A DNA stretch of 38,886 bases from Desulfobulbaceae bacterium. Its GTDB lineage: Bacteria > Desulfobacterota > Desulfobulbia > Desulfobulbales > Desulfobulbaceae. Made by a program: the position numbers and the translations under genes. The DNA lies in contig WFRY01000448.1 in NCBI GenBank assembly GCA_015486315.1, positions 1 to 38,886 of the forward strand, given 5' to 3'. The notes below the pieces were generated by a model. The model did no database searches, was not told the origin of the DNA, and saw only the letters and a list, made by a program, of their open reading frames with translations. This document shows positions 12,650 through 19,678 of the stretch, piece by piece. How positions within the stretch are numbered: position 1 is the stretch's first letter; the number at the start of each line of letters is the position of its first letter.

Positions 12650-12765
12650 TTAAAAACAGACAGGGGATTAAGTATCACCTGTGGGTAGATGTAATTCCAA
12701 AAATTATGTAAGCAGTGCCTGATAATTTGTTGGAAAAAAACCTTCAACGGGGTACTATTTATATA

Positions 12766-12783
12766 TTGGTCATTAATGATCAA
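12766..12783. promoter_or_regulatory. Near-perfect 18-bp palindrome TTGGTCATTAATGATCAA upstream of the secreted protein (operator-like)
   Basis: Single non-complementary pair; ~30 nt upstream of the start codon. Confidence 0.4.
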
Positions 12784-12813
12784 TTAACACTATTTTTGCT
12801 GGAGGGTTTGGTG

Positions 12814-13389
12814 ATGCAGGGTAATAAAAAGGCAGACAAGCAAAATGTACCTGAAAGTCAGGAAAGAAGAACGGCAATAAAAAAGATAGCCGTTGGCGTT
12901 GGTGTTCTTGCCGGTTACAGTGTTCTGCCGGAAAAATGGACCCAGCCGATTGTCGGCCAGATTGCCTTACCTGCCCACGCCGCGACGAGCGGGATCATAA
13001 TAAATGACCCGTGCACCGTTACCTTGTTAAGCGGCGACCAGTCAAGCGCCACCGTTACTATCCGGGTGGAAGGTTTTGTTACCCCACCTACAGCCAACCT
13101 GCCGACAACGATTGTAGCCCAGGGCACCATAACGGCTACTACCGCTACAGCAGCAGATGGTACATTTACCGGGGACCTCACCGTCAATGGTGGCCCGGGT
13201 ATCACTTCGGTTTCAGTGGTCACCACTGTTACCGGAGCAGACGGTACAGCAAGCTGTTCAATAGCCATTCCGGCGACACCGACGACTTCCACGACCTCTG
13301 CTCCGGGGACGAGCACGACAACAACTACGACACGGATACCGACTACGCCACCGATGCCCACAGAGATACCAACTACAGGGCTACCTTGA
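12814..13389 (+). CDS. Small secreted protein with twin-Arg-containing leader, 'PEKWTQPIVGQIALPAHAATS' motif and Thr/Pro/Ser-rich tail; candidate substrate of the island
   Basis: SD ggagg at 12801; 'ERRTAIKKIAVGVGVLAGYSVLPEKWTQPIVGQIALPAHA', C-terminal 'TPTTSTTSAPGTSTTTTTTRIPTTPPMPTEIPTTGLP'. Confidence 0.7.
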   Translation: MQGNKKADKQNVPESQERRTAIKKIAVGVGVLAGYSVLPEKWTQPIVGQIALPAHAATSGIIINDPCTVTLLSGDQSSATVTIRVEGFVTPPTANLPTTIVAQGTITATTATAADGTFTGDLTVNGGPGITSVSVVTTVTGADGTASCSIAIPATPTTSTTSAPGTSTTTTTTRIPTTPPMPTEIPTTGLP

Positions 13390-13408
13390 TCCAGGTGACT
13401 TCTCAATA

Positions 13409-13452
13409 GAAAAAAAGAGGTACGATTCTTCTGGATCGTACCTCTTTTTTTA
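13409..13452. terminator. Rho-independent (bidirectional) terminator
   Basis: aaaaaaagaggtacgat-tcttctgg-atcgtacctctttttttat. Confidence 0.92.
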
Positions 13453-13497
13453 TGTCCATCTCACCAACCCATAATTTTACCACCCACCTGAGCAGCA

Positions 13498-15312
13498 ATG
13501 TCTGAAAAATTCCTTTGCTTTGGCGGCCAAACACTGGCAATCCGATATCCGCTCCAGGCAGCCGCTGTCATCGACTTTACCTTTCTTGACTTTGAAGAAG
13601 GGGATGCGAACGATGCAACCACAATTCTTGAAGTCAGATATGATGAAACAAAAAAACGATTTTCTGTAACAGACGATGGAGAAGGGATTGGGGCAAACCT
13701 TAATCAAGGGGACCTTGCCCTGCTGCTTCTGACCAGAAGTACTTATTCACTCGTCCATGATATCAGCGGGGGGTTGGCTGTCCATGGGGCGGCCGTGCAG
13801 AGAGGCGGTAATGCTGTCCTCATACCGGGCAAAAGCGGCCTTGGCAAAAGCATGCTGACGACCTGGCTTCTTGCGCGAGGTTACGGTTACCTGACAGACG
13901 AGTTGGTCTATTTTCCGGATGATACAGATCATTTCAATGCACTTGTCCGACCACTTCACATAAAGCACTCGGGTCAGTCTGTTATTGAGGATTTTACCCC
14001 ACTCCAAAACAGGAAGGATCGTGTCCTCCAAAATAATACCGGCACCCTGTTTTCACATAGGATTTTTCATAATCAATCGACCCGGACCACATCTCAACTC
14101 TCTCTTCTTCTTTTTATAGAATACAATCGACATACTGCTCTTTCTCTTGACGTCATAAGTCCTGCCCGGGCGGCACAACAACTTATGGGCTGTCTCGTCA
14201 ACGGTCGTAATCTTAAACTGCACGGTTTCAGCCAGGTCGCCTCACTTACACGGCAGATCCCTGCTCTGACTCTTCAATACAGCAACCTGGATCAACTTGA
14301 AAACATACTGAAACCGATCATCGATTTTGTGCTTGCTACCGGCTGCAGTCCCTCTTCCCTCCAGGGATTCATCAGAGCTTTTCATCGTCTCACCTCAAAG
14401 CAACCCACTCCGGTCGCAAGCATAAAAGATTCTGCCCCGGTCTTTCCCATTCAAAAAGCTACTCCACTGAAAAAAAGAAAAAAACTTACCATCGGCATGG
14501 CTACCTATGACGATTATGACGGGGTATACTTTTCCAGCCAGGCACTGCGGATGTATCATCCCGAGGTTACCGAAGACAGTGAAATCCTCGTTATAGATAA
14601 CCATCCGGATGGTCCCTGTGGGGAAAGTTTAAAAAAACTTGATGGGTCCATTGAGGGGTACCGCTATCTACCGTTGCAAGACAAACAGGGAACCGCCGTG
14701 AGAGATTATATTTTTCACCATGCTGTAGGTGATTATGTCCTCTGCATGGATTGCCATGTTTTTATTGTTCCCGGTGCCATCAGAAAATTGATAAACTATT
14801 TTGATGCAAATCCAGGTTGTAGAGATCTGTTGCAGGGCCCCATGATCCACGACGACCTGAAGAAACTATCCACCCATTTTGAACCGATCTGGCGGAAAGG
14901 AATGTACGGAACCTGGGGGCATGATCCACGAGGTGAGAACCGGGAAGGCGATTCATTTGAGATTCCAATGCAGGGCCTTGGCGTCTTTGCCTGCAGTAAA
15001 GATGCCTGGCCGGGATTTAATCAACGCTTTCGTGGCTTTGGTGGTGAAGAGGGGTATATCCACGAAAAATTTCGTCAGGCAGGTGGCCAAACCATCTGCC
15101 TGCCCTTTTTGCGCTGGCTTCACCGCTTTGCCAGACCACTTGGGGTTCCCTATCCGATTCAGTGGGAAGATCGTATACGAAATTATTTAATCGGTTTTGC
15201 TGAACTCGGATTAGATATCGAGCCTGTTAAAGAGCACTTCAGTGAGTTGCTTGGTAAAGAGGTTATGAAAAATATTTATGAAAAAATTAAAAACAAAGAA
15301 AGAACTACCTGA
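13498..15312 (+). CDS. Fusion: N-terminal HprK-related P-loop kinase plus C-terminal family-2-like glycosyltransferase
   Basis: 'HGAAVQRGGNAVLIPGKSGLGKSMLTTWLLARGYGYLTDELVYF' (Walker A, TDELV); 'KKLTIGMATYDDYDGVYFSSQALRMYHPEVTEDSEILVIDNHPDG' GT2-like start; 'YVLCMDCHVFIVPGAI'. Confidence 0.8.
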   Translation: MSEKFLCFGGQTLAIRYPLQAAAVIDFTFLDFEEGDANDATTILEVRYDETKKRFSVTDDGEGIGANLNQGDLALLLLTRSTYSLVHDISGGLAVHGAAVQRGGNAVLIPGKSGLGKSMLTTWLLARGYGYLTDELVYFPDDTDHFNALVRPLHIKHSGQSVIEDFTPLQNRKDRVLQNNTGTLFSHRIFHNQSTRTTSQLSLLLFIEYNRHTALSLDVISPARAAQQLMGCLVNGRNLKLHGFSQVASLTRQIPALTLQYSNLDQLENILKPIIDFVLATGCSPSSLQGFIRAFHRLTSKQPTPVASIKDSAPVFPIQKATPLKKRKKLTIGMATYDDYDGVYFSSQALRMYHPEVTEDSEILVIDNHPDGPCGESLKKLDGSIEGYRYLPLQDKQGTAVRDYIFHHAVGDYVLCMDCHVFIVPGAIRKLINYFDANPGCRDLLQGPMIHDDLKKLSTHFEPIWRKGMYGTWGHDPRGENREGDSFEIPMQGLGVFACSKDAWPGFNQRFRGFGGEEGYIHEKFRQAGGQTICLPFLRWLHRFARPLGVPYPIQWEDRIRNYLIGFAELGLDIEPVKEHFSELLGKEVMKNIYEKIKNKERTT

Positions 15313-16528
15313 ACTTTCTATACATGCCGACAGCGAGTCTTTTGACATTCGCTACTCTATTGTTTATCGTTTTTTGGTTATCACCAGCGGGCAGTGAATT
15401 TTCCTTAATATAAATGTTCCAATAAAGTTTAATCCACCAGAAAATATGCATGGGATGACGTACCAATCTGCTCCAGATGTAAGATAGCTGATTCTCTGGG
15501 CTGTAATACATTAACATCCACCATTGGCCGGGAAAAAAGGTATGGTGTAAAATCTCCATCAACCCTTTTTCCCTCTGCTCAGACAGCCGAAAGTGAGGCC
15601 ACCCCGTAAAACGCTCCCCCACCTCTGAAGGGATAGCTCTCTTGTTACAGGGAATAATCTTCAACACCTCGTCATTCCAAGGAGTTATGTAGTGAAACAG
15701 AGGTAATGCCTTGAAAAGTTGCGGATACACTGATTTAATCTTCACCCAGTCTATTTCTTCAAATTTTTCCTCAACAAGGCTGACAATATCAGCCACGGAT
15801 ATCAGCTTGTACGACTCATAGGTCAGAGGTGCATGAAATCCGTGCTGATACAGATGCCAGAGCATTTCCTCGGTTGCAAGCGTATACGCCTTAACTCCAT
15901 CTATATCAAAACTGAGAGCGTCCGGGTAAAGTTCCGCAAAGGGCAGGGGCTGGTAGTAAGGCGGACAGTTGGGAAAAAGGTCGTGGTGCAGTTCAACACA
16001 TACCTGTAAACCGTCAACACTATGATAAAGGGGGGGCAAATGAAAATGATCTTTCGGGATAGCTGCTGTGGATGCCCTGAAACCTTTTTTTTGTAAGAAT
16101 GCATGAGCGCTCTGTACATCTTCTTTGGCGAGCAAAAGATCGATATCGCGCATGGGTCGCAGGCCGGGATCCGGGTAAAGAGTCCGGCAAAGAGCTGCTC
16201 CTTTCAGGACAAGGCTTGGCATACCTTCTTCTTCCAGCAGCTCCAGCATATGGCGAAGGCACTGAACAAGAAGAGTATTTGCCTGTCGATGGCGAAGGCT
16301 TAAAAATCTCAGCCCTCGGAGGAATGAATCCGGCAGCGTTTCCTCAAGGGAAGCAAGGTGCCTGTGTAATAGCGGCCCCATCCCCTGTTCTTCCGCCTTG
16401 CTCAGCAGCAATTCATCCCATTTGCTGAAAGTGGCGCAGGCTGTAACAAGGTTGTGGTGCTGAACCGGATGTTGCCGGACCCTGGCACAGAGGTTTAAAA
16501 TTTGAATATCCGTACTTGTTTTTGTCAC
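15305..16528 (-). CDS. Nucleotidyltransferase family protein (NTP_transf_5-like)
   Basis: 'LVLKGAALCRTLYPDPGLRPMRDIDLLLAKEDV' nucleotidyltransferase core. Confidence 0.82.
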   Translation of the reverse strand: MTKTSTDIQILNLCARVRQHPVQHHNLVTACATFSKWDELLLSKAEEQGMGPLLHRHLASLEETLPDSFLRGLRFLSLRHRQANTLLVQCLRHMLELLEEEGMPSLVLKGAALCRTLYPDPGLRPMRDIDLLLAKEDVQSAHAFLQKKGFRASTAAIPKDHFHLPPLYHSVDGLQVCVELHHDLFPNCPPYYQPLPFAELYPDALSFDIDGVKAYTLATEEMLWHLYQHGFHAPLTYESYKLISVADIVSLVEEKFEEIDWVKIKSVYPQLFKALPLFHYITPWNDEVLKIIPCNKRAIPSEVGERFTGWPHFRLSEQREKGLMEILHHTFFPGQWWMLMYYSPENQLSYIWSRLVRHPMHIFWWIKLYWNIYIKENSLPAGDNQKTINNRVANVKRLAVGMYRKFR

Positions 16529-16571
16529 CAGTCCACACCGTTACTTTGAGATTCAGGACCAGCCATCTCAG

Positions 16572-17228
16572 CTATACTATCGGCTTCTGGATTTCAACAT
16601 CAAACGAATAGCCAAATGTTTCAAAGTCTTCAGCAAACAGGTCCTGTATGATATGAATGCTTTGGGGAGAAGTATAGTGCTCAACAACCGGCATGTCACT
16701 CAACTCCGGATGTCGGTATGTGTTATGATGCTCCAGGCTTGAGGTGATTTTTAACTGCTTTCGAACTGAATCAAGTGACTGTGGCAGCCTTTCAAAATGT
16801 GCTATCCGGTCGCAAACATTTTCACCATCTATTTTTGTGTAACATACCTGGGGAATATAATGCGATCCTTTCAGTACTTTTTTTGATTGAATCTTCCCGG
16901 GAAGCTGTTCGATAAATTGCGTAAAACTTCCAAATTGCCGTTGATGATAGCCATACAGATAGAAGTAGACTGAAACCATACGCGCAAATGGATTACGAAC
17001 AACTGTAAACTTATAATACCGATAGAACAGTTGATCGCCGACCAATCGCCTGATTGTCTCTGCTGTAGCATGCTGTAAGTATATCTTCTCTGTTGCATCC
17101 CAACCAAACATCTTGTCATGGTCTGCGATTCGGAAATCAAGCTCTTCATCGTGCAACATTCTTTCGACAGAGACACCGGCAGTCTTGCCTATGTGTAAAA
17201 AAATCGTTTCCAGATTATGGAAGATCAT
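16572..17228 (-). CDS. Sulfotransferase family protein (Sulfotransfer_2-like)
   Basis: 'IFLHIGKTAGVSVERML' 5'-PSB and 'FTVVRNPFARMVSVYFYLYG' 3'-PB PAPS-binding motifs. Confidence 0.85.
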   Translation of the reverse strand: MIFHNLETIFLHIGKTAGVSVERMLHDEELDFRIADHDKMFGWDATEKIYLQHATAETIRRLVGDQLFYRYYKFTVVRNPFARMVSVYFYLYGYHQRQFGSFTQFIEQLPGKIQSKKVLKGSHYIPQVCYTKIDGENVCDRIAHFERLPQSLDSVRKQLKITSSLEHHNTYRHPELSDMPVVEHYTSPQSIHIIQDLFAEDFETFGYSFDVEIQKPIV

Positions 17229-17402
17229 AGCAAATAGGAGAATTATCGTTCTGGATGAACGCTATGCTGCGAAAAAATCAAAATTGAAAATAAACTGTCA
17301 TTTATCAGATGCATAATCCAGCAAGAAAAATTTTCATGTTCTGGAACATGGAAAGGATACAATAACTAAATTTTGTCCCGGAATTGCCCATGCAATCATT
17401 TT

Positions 17403-18386
17403 TTATAGTTCTCCGTAAGCGATATATTCCTTTACGGGATGAAATATACCTGGCTGCAGAAAATTGTAATTCTGCTTGTGGGCAGATATGGTTGCAGCCA
17501 AATTTTCAGGAAAAGTTTTTATTTCAAGTTGAGTTCTTTGAGCAGTCGTAGCAACACGAAATTCAGAGAACACATCTGCAGAACTTGCCTCTTGAGATAA
17601 AACTTCCAGTGCATGATGCGAAAAAAGTATACTCCCCAATGGCGGTACACCCGCAGCAAATGGTTGCTCAAATGGTGCCAGGCGGGAAATTTCAGCAAAC
17701 CATTGCCAGCCGGGATTATCTTTTTGCAGAAAAAAAGTTCTTGCGGCAACATCCGCGTCCCAAATCTCGCTGTAGGCGACAGCGAGCGGCATGGTGCAAT
17801 GACAATCATATTCCGCCAACACATAACGTTTGGCTGACTTTTTCCGATTGAGAAACCAGGTATAGATTATTCCGTCCATGGATCGCCATGGATTTGAAAG
17901 ATCCCATTTACTTTCAAATAATCCAACATCAACTGTTTCAAGAGGACCTTTCAATCTGGCTGAAAGATTATGTCCCAGAGGAATAACCATTGCCTCTGGA
18001 TTAAAAAAAGTCAAAAGGTCCAGGTGGCGACGGGTTACTGCATCTACCTTATGATATGCAAAAAGGATACACAATTCTGCAGGCTCTGCAGCTTCGACCG
18101 AGGAAACCGGTGGAGTTAAGATCAATCCTCCGGCATTGGCAAGTGCGCGAAAACCATCCACCAAACCAATATCGATAGAGTGACCTGCCTCAGGAAAATA
18201 ATCGTGTAAAATATCTGTAATCTCACCTAAATTTCTCGACCCGTCAGCGAGTTGCCATAACAGAACCGCTGTATCGTTAATATATATTGGATGCACATTG
18301 TTGTTGCGCTCAAGATAAAAAGCATCACCATTTCTCCGGATTGAGCAGCGTTCCGCATGTACAGGAATTGTGTTTTTATGAATCAC
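17403..18386 (-). CDS. PqqD-like N-terminal domain fused to ~230-aa glycosyltransferase-like domain
   Basis: 'NNVHPIYINDTAVLLWQLADGSRNLGEITDILHDYFPEA...GFRALANAGGLILT' PqqD-like; C-terminal 'RYVLAEYDCHCTMPLAVAYSEIWDADV' with acidic motif. Confidence 0.65.
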   Translation of the reverse strand: MIHKNTIPVHAERCSIRRNGDAFYLERNNNVHPIYINDTAVLLWQLADGSRNLGEITDILHDYFPEAGHSIDIGLVDGFRALANAGGLILTPPVSSVEAAEPAELCILFAYHKVDAVTRRHLDLLTFFNPEAMVIPLGHNLSARLKGPLETVDVGLFESKWDLSNPWRSMDGIIYTWFLNRKKSAKRYVLAEYDCHCTMPLAVAYSEIWDADVAARTFFLQKDNPGWQWFAEISRLAPFEQPFAAGVPPLGSILFSHHALEVLSQEASSADVFSEFRVATTAQRTQLEIKTFPENLAATISAHKQNYNFLQPGIFHPVKEYIAYGEL

Positions 18387-18448
18387 GGGCTTTTGAATTT
18401 TGTATTAAAGATGTGGCAAACAGGAAAATATCCAGTGAGCAGTTGCAA

Positions 18449-19321
18449 TTATACTTCTTCTTTTTCTGTGATTTTCCCCATGATTTCAGAAAAAAATTCA
18501 GGGAAAATTGATTCTAAAGTTTTCAAGCTGCCATATCTTACTTGATAGACAGGGGTTTTCCTGCTCAGTTCCGCCAACCAGCTGATTCCATGGCCCCTGA
18601 AATTTCTGGCGTTGACGTAACATTCCATAAGCCTGGAGCAAGCTATACCGCTTGTCAATCTTGTTATTTCCAGACGTGCACCGGCTATAAACTGAGGAAA
18701 CAGGATAAGCGACAGGGGAGGAGAAGCAGTTAAAAAATTCTCATTTAACAGACGATGAGGCAACATAAAGCCATCAGTACCGGTCAAAACTTTTTTTTGA
18801 TCAAAACTCAGTAAAGAAGAAAGAATTGCGGCTGAACCGGTCTTGATTGAGATCGGTCGGGTTAGAGGCTGTATATGAGTATCTTCTTCTGCAATGACCA
18901 CCAGTTCATCTGTCAGATAATTACACCCCATAGCTGTAAGCCAGGCGACCAGCGTACTTTTCCCGCAGCTACTTTTTCCGGGCAGGAGGACACCATTTCC
19001 ATGATAAGCAATCGCTGCCGCATGGATGGCATGACCGGCAGTGTTGTCTGCTATGCTTTGGAAAATGATTTCGTTGATCAGCGTATACGCCAAAGCGTAG
19101 CTGCAATCTCCAAAATAGAGCTTTTTTTCTCCCTGCCAGAGCGACATCATCGGTTTGTTGCCAACAATCACGACATCATACACAGCACGTACGGGAGTGT
19201 CTGTTGTTGTCGGCAGATCAGAACATACAAAATCGACCAGTAAAGCTGCTTCAGGTCCATTGCAGTTAATTGTGACAAATTGGTCACAAAAGCCGATGGT
19301 ACGACTCTCTTGTTCATTCAT
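18449..19321 (-). CDS. HprK-related kinase (stand-alone)
   Basis: 'HAAAIAYHGNGVLLPGKSSCGKSTLVAWLTAMGCNYLTDELVVI'; paralogous to N-terminus of 13498-15312. Confidence 0.82.
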   Translation of the reverse strand: MNEQESRTIGFCDQFVTINCNGPEAALLVDFVCSDLPTTTDTPVRAVYDVVIVGNKPMMSLWQGEKKLYFGDCSYALAYTLINEIIFQSIADNTAGHAIHAAAIAYHGNGVLLPGKSSCGKSTLVAWLTAMGCNYLTDELVVIAEEDTHIQPLTRPISIKTGSAAILSSLLSFDQKKVLTGTDGFMLPHRLLNENFLTASPPLSLILFPQFIAGARLEITRLTSGIACSRLMECYVNARNFRGHGISWLAELSRKTPVYQVRYGSLKTLESIFPEFFSEIMGKITEKEEV

Positions 19322-19592
19322 CAGCAGGGATCAAAGCTCCATTTTCAACCAGAGACTCCAGAGCAGCAATAACATCCTCCCGGATAGTGTCCCTCTGCTC
19401 AGGATATGCCTCTTTAAGAAGGGTGATGATTTCATCGACAGAATGTCCTTTTCCGCACATTTCCCAAACCAGGTAGGCTGTCTCATTGAGATATATTCCT
19501 TTGCTGTTGGAAACGGCGTATAACAAAATTTCATTGTCAAAGGTTTCAACCTTAAATTTAGAGTTCAATGTAAACTTTTGTGAATCGTCCAT
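19314..19592 (-). CDS. PqqD family protein
   Basis: 'NSKGIYLNETAYLVWEMCGKGHSVDEIITLLKEAYPEQRDTIREDVIAALESLVENGALI'; overlaps kinase start. Confidence 0.85.
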   Translation of the reverse strand: MDDSQKFTLNSKFKVETFDNEILLYAVSNSKGIYLNETAYLVWEMCGKGHSVDEIITLLKEAYPEQRDTIREDVIAALESLVENGALIPADE

Positions 19593-19678
19593 GATTTCAG
19601 ACCTATAAAAAGATGTAAAAGAGACAGCTGAATAAATGTAAACGCTTCATTAAGGTAACGTGAAGAAGATAGTTGTTC

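Follow-up and report, generated by a model that had tools for sequence, protein, structure and literature searches.

Two classes of ribosomally synthesized and post-translationally modified peptides (RiPPs) are the nearest characterised relatives of the locus described here, the Bacillota RiPPs known as linear polyphosphorylated peptides (LPPs; Popov et al. 2026, PMC13381572) and the phosphorylated lasso peptides of the paeninodin/pseudomycoidin type (PMC13381572, PMC9266682). The LPP systems combine a discrete RiPP recognition element (RRE), an HprK-like kinase and an NTP transferase with precursors that have a [Y/W]xxP leader, signal-peptidase-type cleavage ~15 residues past the motif, a hydroxyl residue at core position +3 and variable cores. 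The kinase LppK phosphorylates Ser3 of the LppA core (AQS..), just past the cleavage site, and did not phosphorylate an S3T variant (PMC13381572). The phosphorylated lasso systems likewise have a WxxP leader with W at −15, a PqqD-fold B1 protein, an HprK kinase and an NTP_transf-like protein; the pseudomycoidin kinase phosphorylates Ser, to which a hexose is then added by the NTP_transf-like PsmN, or by a host enzyme after PsmN. The RREs of both classes bind [Y/W]xxPx[LVIAFY], and in the LPP RRE, LppB, an Asn fixes the proline kink and an Asp holds Tyr-16 (PMC13381572). Here we describe an island with such machinery at positions 12650-19678 of a 38,886-nucleotide stretch (the window; contig WFRY01000448.1 of assembly GCA_015486315.1) from a Desulfobulbaceae bacterium, and we consider it probable that it is a leader-guided modification system for proteins exported by twin-arginine translocation (Tat), modification of a mucin-like tail included. 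It is best read as LPP/paeninodin-like machinery that was retargeted to Tat-exported proteins and that in the window was extended to mucin-like glycosylation and sulfation.

The link to these RiPPs lies in the signal peptide of a secreted, Thr-rich protein, the likely substrate (client) of the island, whose probable start is the ATG at 12814 following GGAGG. The initial annotation had noted this protein as substrate-like, and its signal peptide holds the decisive element absent from that annotation, an RRE-binding motif together with a Ser at mature position +3. The features of the client are as follows.

12814..13389, plus strand: client (putative substrate) with a Tat-type signal peptide in which an RRE-binding motif is embedded, a beta-like domain and a Thr/Pro-rich tail (open reading frame; leader model E 5.9e-23)
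12865..12870, plus strand: twin arginine (RR) of the signal peptide (RR conservation)
12937..12954, plus strand: WTQPIV, a [Y/W]xxPx[LVIAFY] motif with W at −15 and P at −12 (sequence; motif from PMC13381572)
12973..12981, plus strand: AHA signal-peptidase-I site, cleavage predicted after 12981 (LPAHA conserved)
12988..12990, plus strand: Ser at mature +3, predicted phospho-acceptor (S/T conservation; parallel to LppA Ser3)
13276..13386, plus strand: Thr/Pro-rich tail, predicted to be O-glycosylated (and sulfated) (12 Thr in 20 residues)

The leader and cleavage junction of the window client read ERRTAIKKIAVGVGVLAGYSVLPEKWTQPIVGQIALPAHA followed by ATSG, and a second locus of the same genome (contig C196) encodes PqqD, HprK and NTP_transf_5 proteins beside a secreted protein with DRRQVLKKFAVGTAALAGCSVLPETWTSPVLKFAALPAHA followed by VTSG; WTQPIV and WTSPVL both fit the published motif. 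When the precise LPAHA leader was sought as a DNA pattern, the window copy alone matched, the C196 copy having come from contig reading and the profile. The 97 distinct clients that were gathered from fetched loci with a leader model ending at AHA, a phylogenetically non-independent sample covering Desulfobulbales, Gammaproteobacteria, Chloroflexota and one alphaproteobacterium, all have W at −15, never Y, and P at −12, W−15 corresponding to the numbering of the paeninodin-type leader PbaA. Ser or Thr occupies +3 in every one of them (97/97), compared with 12% in control signal-peptide-like reading frames (n=33) and 20% in cores, the mature proteins starting with ATS, VTS, QTS or QTT. The clients are likely Tat substrates, since RR is invariant in a 16-leader alignment and nearly so in 72 clients, 17 of the 72 match the TAT model at E<0.01 (weak matches), and TatC is present in all 12 genomes checked, including the source genome. 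Neither NCBIfam nor Pfam has a model for the leader other than generic Tat, and no description of the tag was found in the literature (open papers only). Two other loci of the source genome may be mentioned: a divergent one on contig C310 (L007:6709-9703), where PqqD and HprK are fused and accompanied by NTP_transf_5 and a secreted Tat-like protein lacking WxxP, and a fourth NTP_transf_5 gene on contig C413 (L011), in glycosyltransferase surroundings with neither kinase nor leader. As to the client cores, that of L044:7228-8727 is beta-propeller-like and ~420 residues long behind the same leader, and 12 of 96 mature cores (L136, L137, L141, L152, L153, L156, L157, L131 and others) contain an internal AHA after an amphipathic stretch (ILDMFAGPAHA, IIDKLISPAHA, AEAMVPSAHA), versus 0.9 expected in shuffles, which could be internal processing sites.

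The leader does not occur at random among genomes, and its pairing with the kinase is well supported. Of 245 genomes of Desulfobulbales, 44 have the leader; strong leader matches occur in 40, strong kinase matches in 41 and both in 38, so that the kinase is found in 38/40 leader genomes vs 3/205 others (P 1.4e-38). In a Chloroflexota class, a scan of 249 genomes in which the kinase profile also contained Chloroflexota sequences gave 18 with the leader, 18 with the kinase and 16 with both (16/18 vs 2/231, P 3.6e-21), leader and kinase lying on one contig within ~3 kb in 14 of these 16. The leader is also present in 7/369 genomes of a gammaproteobacterial class. The kinase scan of genomes yielded 41 loci, many with PqqD, kinase and NTP_transf_5 genes beside a leader-bearing protein, and among 37 kinase genes with flanks PqqD is near 27 and NTP_transf_5 near 31. 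The recurring neighbourhood, a check named beforehand, was thus found far above chance, and the PqqD-HprK-NTP_transf_5-client set recurs in Desulfobulbales, Gammaproteobacteria, Chloroflexota and Oricola. Leader copies per genome reach 20, 14 and 10 (Desulforhopalus singaporensis DSM 12130 has 10 matches), and because they are so numerous and scattered, a single machinery apparently handles many clients. L131:5661-13329, from a same-family genome assembled as one contig, has three leader proteins clustered beside a single kinase module.

By its defining features the island is not an LPP, lasso or HPr-rel-A system. The LPP leader reads YxxPxVLxHQxIxFETxxS, whereas the clients here have a full Tat signal peptide with a different later part, the hydroxyl at +3 being kept. 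LPP clusters contain an SpI-like peptidase and an MsbA-like transporter, but the island has neither, and when 70 neighbouring proteins were screened for a dedicated exporter or peptidase, no Pfam family recurred in more than 3 of them. Unlike LPP precursors, the clients here measure up to ~420 residues, are many per genome and occur outside Bacillota, and a GT27/60-like glycosyltransferase (GT), GT25 and a sulfotransferase are added. Phosphorylated lasso clusters have a macrolactam cyclase and a B2 peptidase, for which there is no gene in the island, and their kinase modifies a C-terminal Ser, whereas the site here is predicted to be near the mature N-terminus of an exported non-lasso protein. 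The DUF2063/DUF2282 RiPPs also have precursors with an export signal peptide, but this is a Sec signal without a defined RRE motif and the enzymes are different (PMC12710340).

The genes listed in the initial annotation as one block are all open frames and belong together. Besides the client they comprise the following.

19314..19592, minus strand: discrete RRE of PqqD fold, overlapping the kinase start by 8 bases (PF05402, 58.3 bits, cut-off 23.4)
18449..19321, minus strand: stand-alone HprK-like kinase (profile matches)
17403..18386, minus strand: RRE (PqqD-like) N-terminal domain with a ~220-residue C-terminal domain (PF05402, 16.7, below cut-off; relatives in the order)
16572..17228, minus strand: sulfotransferase (PF03567, 50.6 bits, cut-off 22) with PAPS-type motifs HIGKTAG and RNPFARMVS
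15305..16528, minus strand: NTP_transf_5 nucleotidyltransferase-like protein, PsmN/LppN type (PF14907, 144.9 bits, cut-off 31.2)
13498..15312, plus strand: HprK-like kinase domain (residues 1-288) fused to a predicted GT27/GT60-like GT-A domain (residues 328-597, 14479-15288; profiles, model)
13410..13452, plus strand: intrinsic terminator in the client/HprK-GT intergenic region (−26.9 kcal/mol, z −7.0)

Of the two PqqD-like domains proposed at first, that of 19314-19592 is clear, and the N-terminus of 17403-18386, although below the Pfam cut-off, has as its relatives in the order the RREs of this system (best E 1.6e-8). Searched against the PDB, the RRE family profile finds the lasso RRE TbiB1 first (5v1u, 1.3e-8) and then LppB (9x8z, 1.6e-6), and the equivalent of LppB N33 is invariant in 25/25 RREs, that of Y60 is Y or F in 25/25 and that of D70 is D or E in 23/25. 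The two HprK-like P-loop proteins proved to share their motif as proposed (HGAAV..GNAVLIPGKSGLGKSMLTTWL..YLTDELV in 13498-15312 and HAAAI..GNGVLLPGKSSCGKSTLVAWL..YLTDELV in 18449-19321) and match PF07475 with E 2.5e-5 and 1.6e-4, respectively; the NTP_transf_5 and Sulfotransfer_2 assignments also held. In the Rheinheimera, Alkalimonas and Aestuariibacter relatives (L035-L046), the kinase and NTP_transf_5 genes are adjacent, and neither an RRE nor a leader client was detected.

Pfam calls the second half of 13498-15312 GT2 (33.8 bits), but its model (12-sequence alignment; pLDDT 81, pTM 0.83) has as its best 16 PDB chains only polypeptide GalNAc-transferases. DxH, reported in a GT-A survey for GT27 and GT60, families that share polypeptide Ser/Thr O-glycosylation (PMC7185993), is present in 16/16 of these GT proteins. 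The domain has in common with GT27/GT60 the GT-A fold, C-His-like and xED-like motifs and association with a Thr-rich acceptor, and differs in being bacterial, cytoplasmic and fused to a kinase or RRE. From the model it is probably GT27/GT60-like and of the mucin-initiating type; sugar, phosphate and sulfate in the proposed system are all suggested by the protein families. Clients beside this GT are Thr-rich (>=7 Thr in some 20-residue stretch, scored per genome) in 12/12 genomes vs 3/26 kinase-only genomes (P 1.7e-7), and at 8 Thr in 11/12 vs 1/26; the thresholds were chosen on the same data, and four of them gave similar P. Such stretches include poly-Thr tails and (APTTTS)n repeats; the L126 kinase loci with Thr runs were treated separately, as a contig end truncates the kinase gene there. 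Fusions join the same parts elsewhere, namely HprK-GT2-GT25-sulfotransferase (L120), PqqD-GT2-GT25 (L227) and GT32-PqqD-GT2-GT25 (L233), and the window sulfotransferase is of the same family as that of the L120 fusion; its two motifs fit what we take to be the usual PAPS-binding motifs.

The GT is where the strongest rival must be weighed, according to which the island is an LPP-like RiPP system without the mucin part, the kinase and NTP transferase acting on the leader-proximal Ser, the GT and sulfotransferase being passengers or polysaccharide enzymes and the product a phosphorylated exported protein. Most loci do hold just PqqD-HprK-NTP_transf_5 and a client without a Thr tail, and LPP and paeninodin clusters are also located among polysaccharide genes (PMC13381572). 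Nevertheless, passengers would not be expected to be fused to the kinase or RRE beside uniformly Thr-rich clients, nor would the GT domain be far better kept than its kinase fusion partner (69% vs 35%), and we judge this alternative unlikely.

In the favoured reading, a leader-guided system that reaches the mucin-like tail, our best inference is that the discrete RRE would bind WTQPIV in the c-region of the client Tat signal peptide and offer the HprK-like kinases the segment just past the point of later cleavage. These would phosphorylate the Ser at mature +3, and the NTP_transf_5 protein would cap or glycosylate the phosphate, a proposal based on Ser3 phosphorylation in LPP and hexosylation of phospho-Ser in pseudomycoidin. 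The kinase-fused GT27/GT60-like domain may initiate O-glycosylation of the Thr-rich tail, whose glycan the sulfotransferase may sulfate, these steps all being cytoplasmic. Tat transports proteins that are already folded and modified and would then export the product, which ordinary signal peptidase I would cleave behind AHA; the mature protein would bear a modified N-terminus and a mucin-like tail, possibly with a role at the cell surface.

Several observations weigh against this reading. The chief misfit is that about half of the clients have Thr at +3, which LppK refuses, so that the kinases here must differ or another enzyme acts, and existing biochemistry concerns Bacillota peptides only. 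A client is near only 25 of the 37 kinase genes, the Rheinheimera/Alkalimonas branch being among those without the full neighbourhood. LppB has a pocket Phe (F74) that the RREs here do not keep. Of the GT fusions initially proposed, only the one in 13498-15312 is confirmed. The C-terminal domain of 17403-18386 matched no family; a profile comparison of this half with the GT family also gave no match, an AlphaFold model made without homologues has a pLDDT of 34, and as its YVLAEYDCHC resembles YVLCMDCHV by eye only, we make no GT claim for it. Other GT-A enzymes are close behind the GalNAc-transferases (RmlT has a ~ten-fold weaker E and a TM of ~0.6), and a PDB sequence search with the GT found TarP and no solved GalNAc-transferase up to E 10. 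Over 89 residues, the sulfotransferase of the window is only 27% like that of L120.

A second rival takes the HprK proteins as ATP-driven RRE partners or regulators of capsule synthesis rather than client kinases, and the leader as a lineage-specific Tat signal. HprK-fold proteins could indeed be without kinase activity, but the exact RRE motif, its spacing and the +3 hydroxyl are kept across phyla and from genome to genome the kinase genes go with the leader, which makes this explanation improbable. The HPr-rel-A system (TIGR04352/TIGR04353), to which the initial annotation had pointed and which also has HprK-like and PqqD-like proteins, can be dismissed as highly improbable, since TIGR04352, the best NCBIfam match of both kinases (E 2e-21 and 2.5e-23), gives them 76.1 and 82.6 bits against a curated cut-off of 200 and the PqqD protein scores 13.6 bits against TIGR04353 (PqqD_rel_X; E 0.098, cut-off 35). 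The core of that annotation, a protein-directed sulfated-glycan system with a Thr-rich substrate, is supported by the recurrence, the leader motif, the link between GT and Thr-rich clients and the GT fusions with RRE and sulfotransferase.

On the plus strand the client is followed by the terminator and HprK-GT, and on the minus strand the order is RRE, kinase, 17403-18386, sulfotransferase and NTP_transf_5, apparently one operon. The terminator is strong and directly 3' of the client gene, an arrangement that is common where the gene of an abundant precursor adjoins those of its enzymes. The G+C content of 13490-19600 is 0.447 vs 0.538 on the left and 0.481 on the right, with helicase genes flanking one side and a HIT/universal-stress/SulP stretch the other, in a source genome of 3.75 Mb in 485 contigs.

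The known role of RRE domains is that of adaptors for small natural-product peptides; in this case the set of RRE and kinase is linked to a tag in the Tat signal peptides of whole proteins, up to 20 of them tagged per genome. If the proposed reading is true, the obscure HprK/PqqD/NTP_transf_5 neighbourhood would become a substrate-defined modification system with exact predictions of protein, residue and cleavage site, and its short, portable leader could serve glycoprotein engineering in E. coli. The case is evenly balanced for the wider proposal that at least three phyla use a RiPP recognition motif embedded in signal peptides as a general sorting and modification tag on many exported proteins per genome, one branch of which carries out cytoplasmic, RRE-guided mucin-type O-glycosylation and sulfation with a bacterial GT27/GT60-like initiator. 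Should the GT work as predicted, this branch would give bacteria a counterpart of mucin-type O-glycosylation, complete with sulfation.

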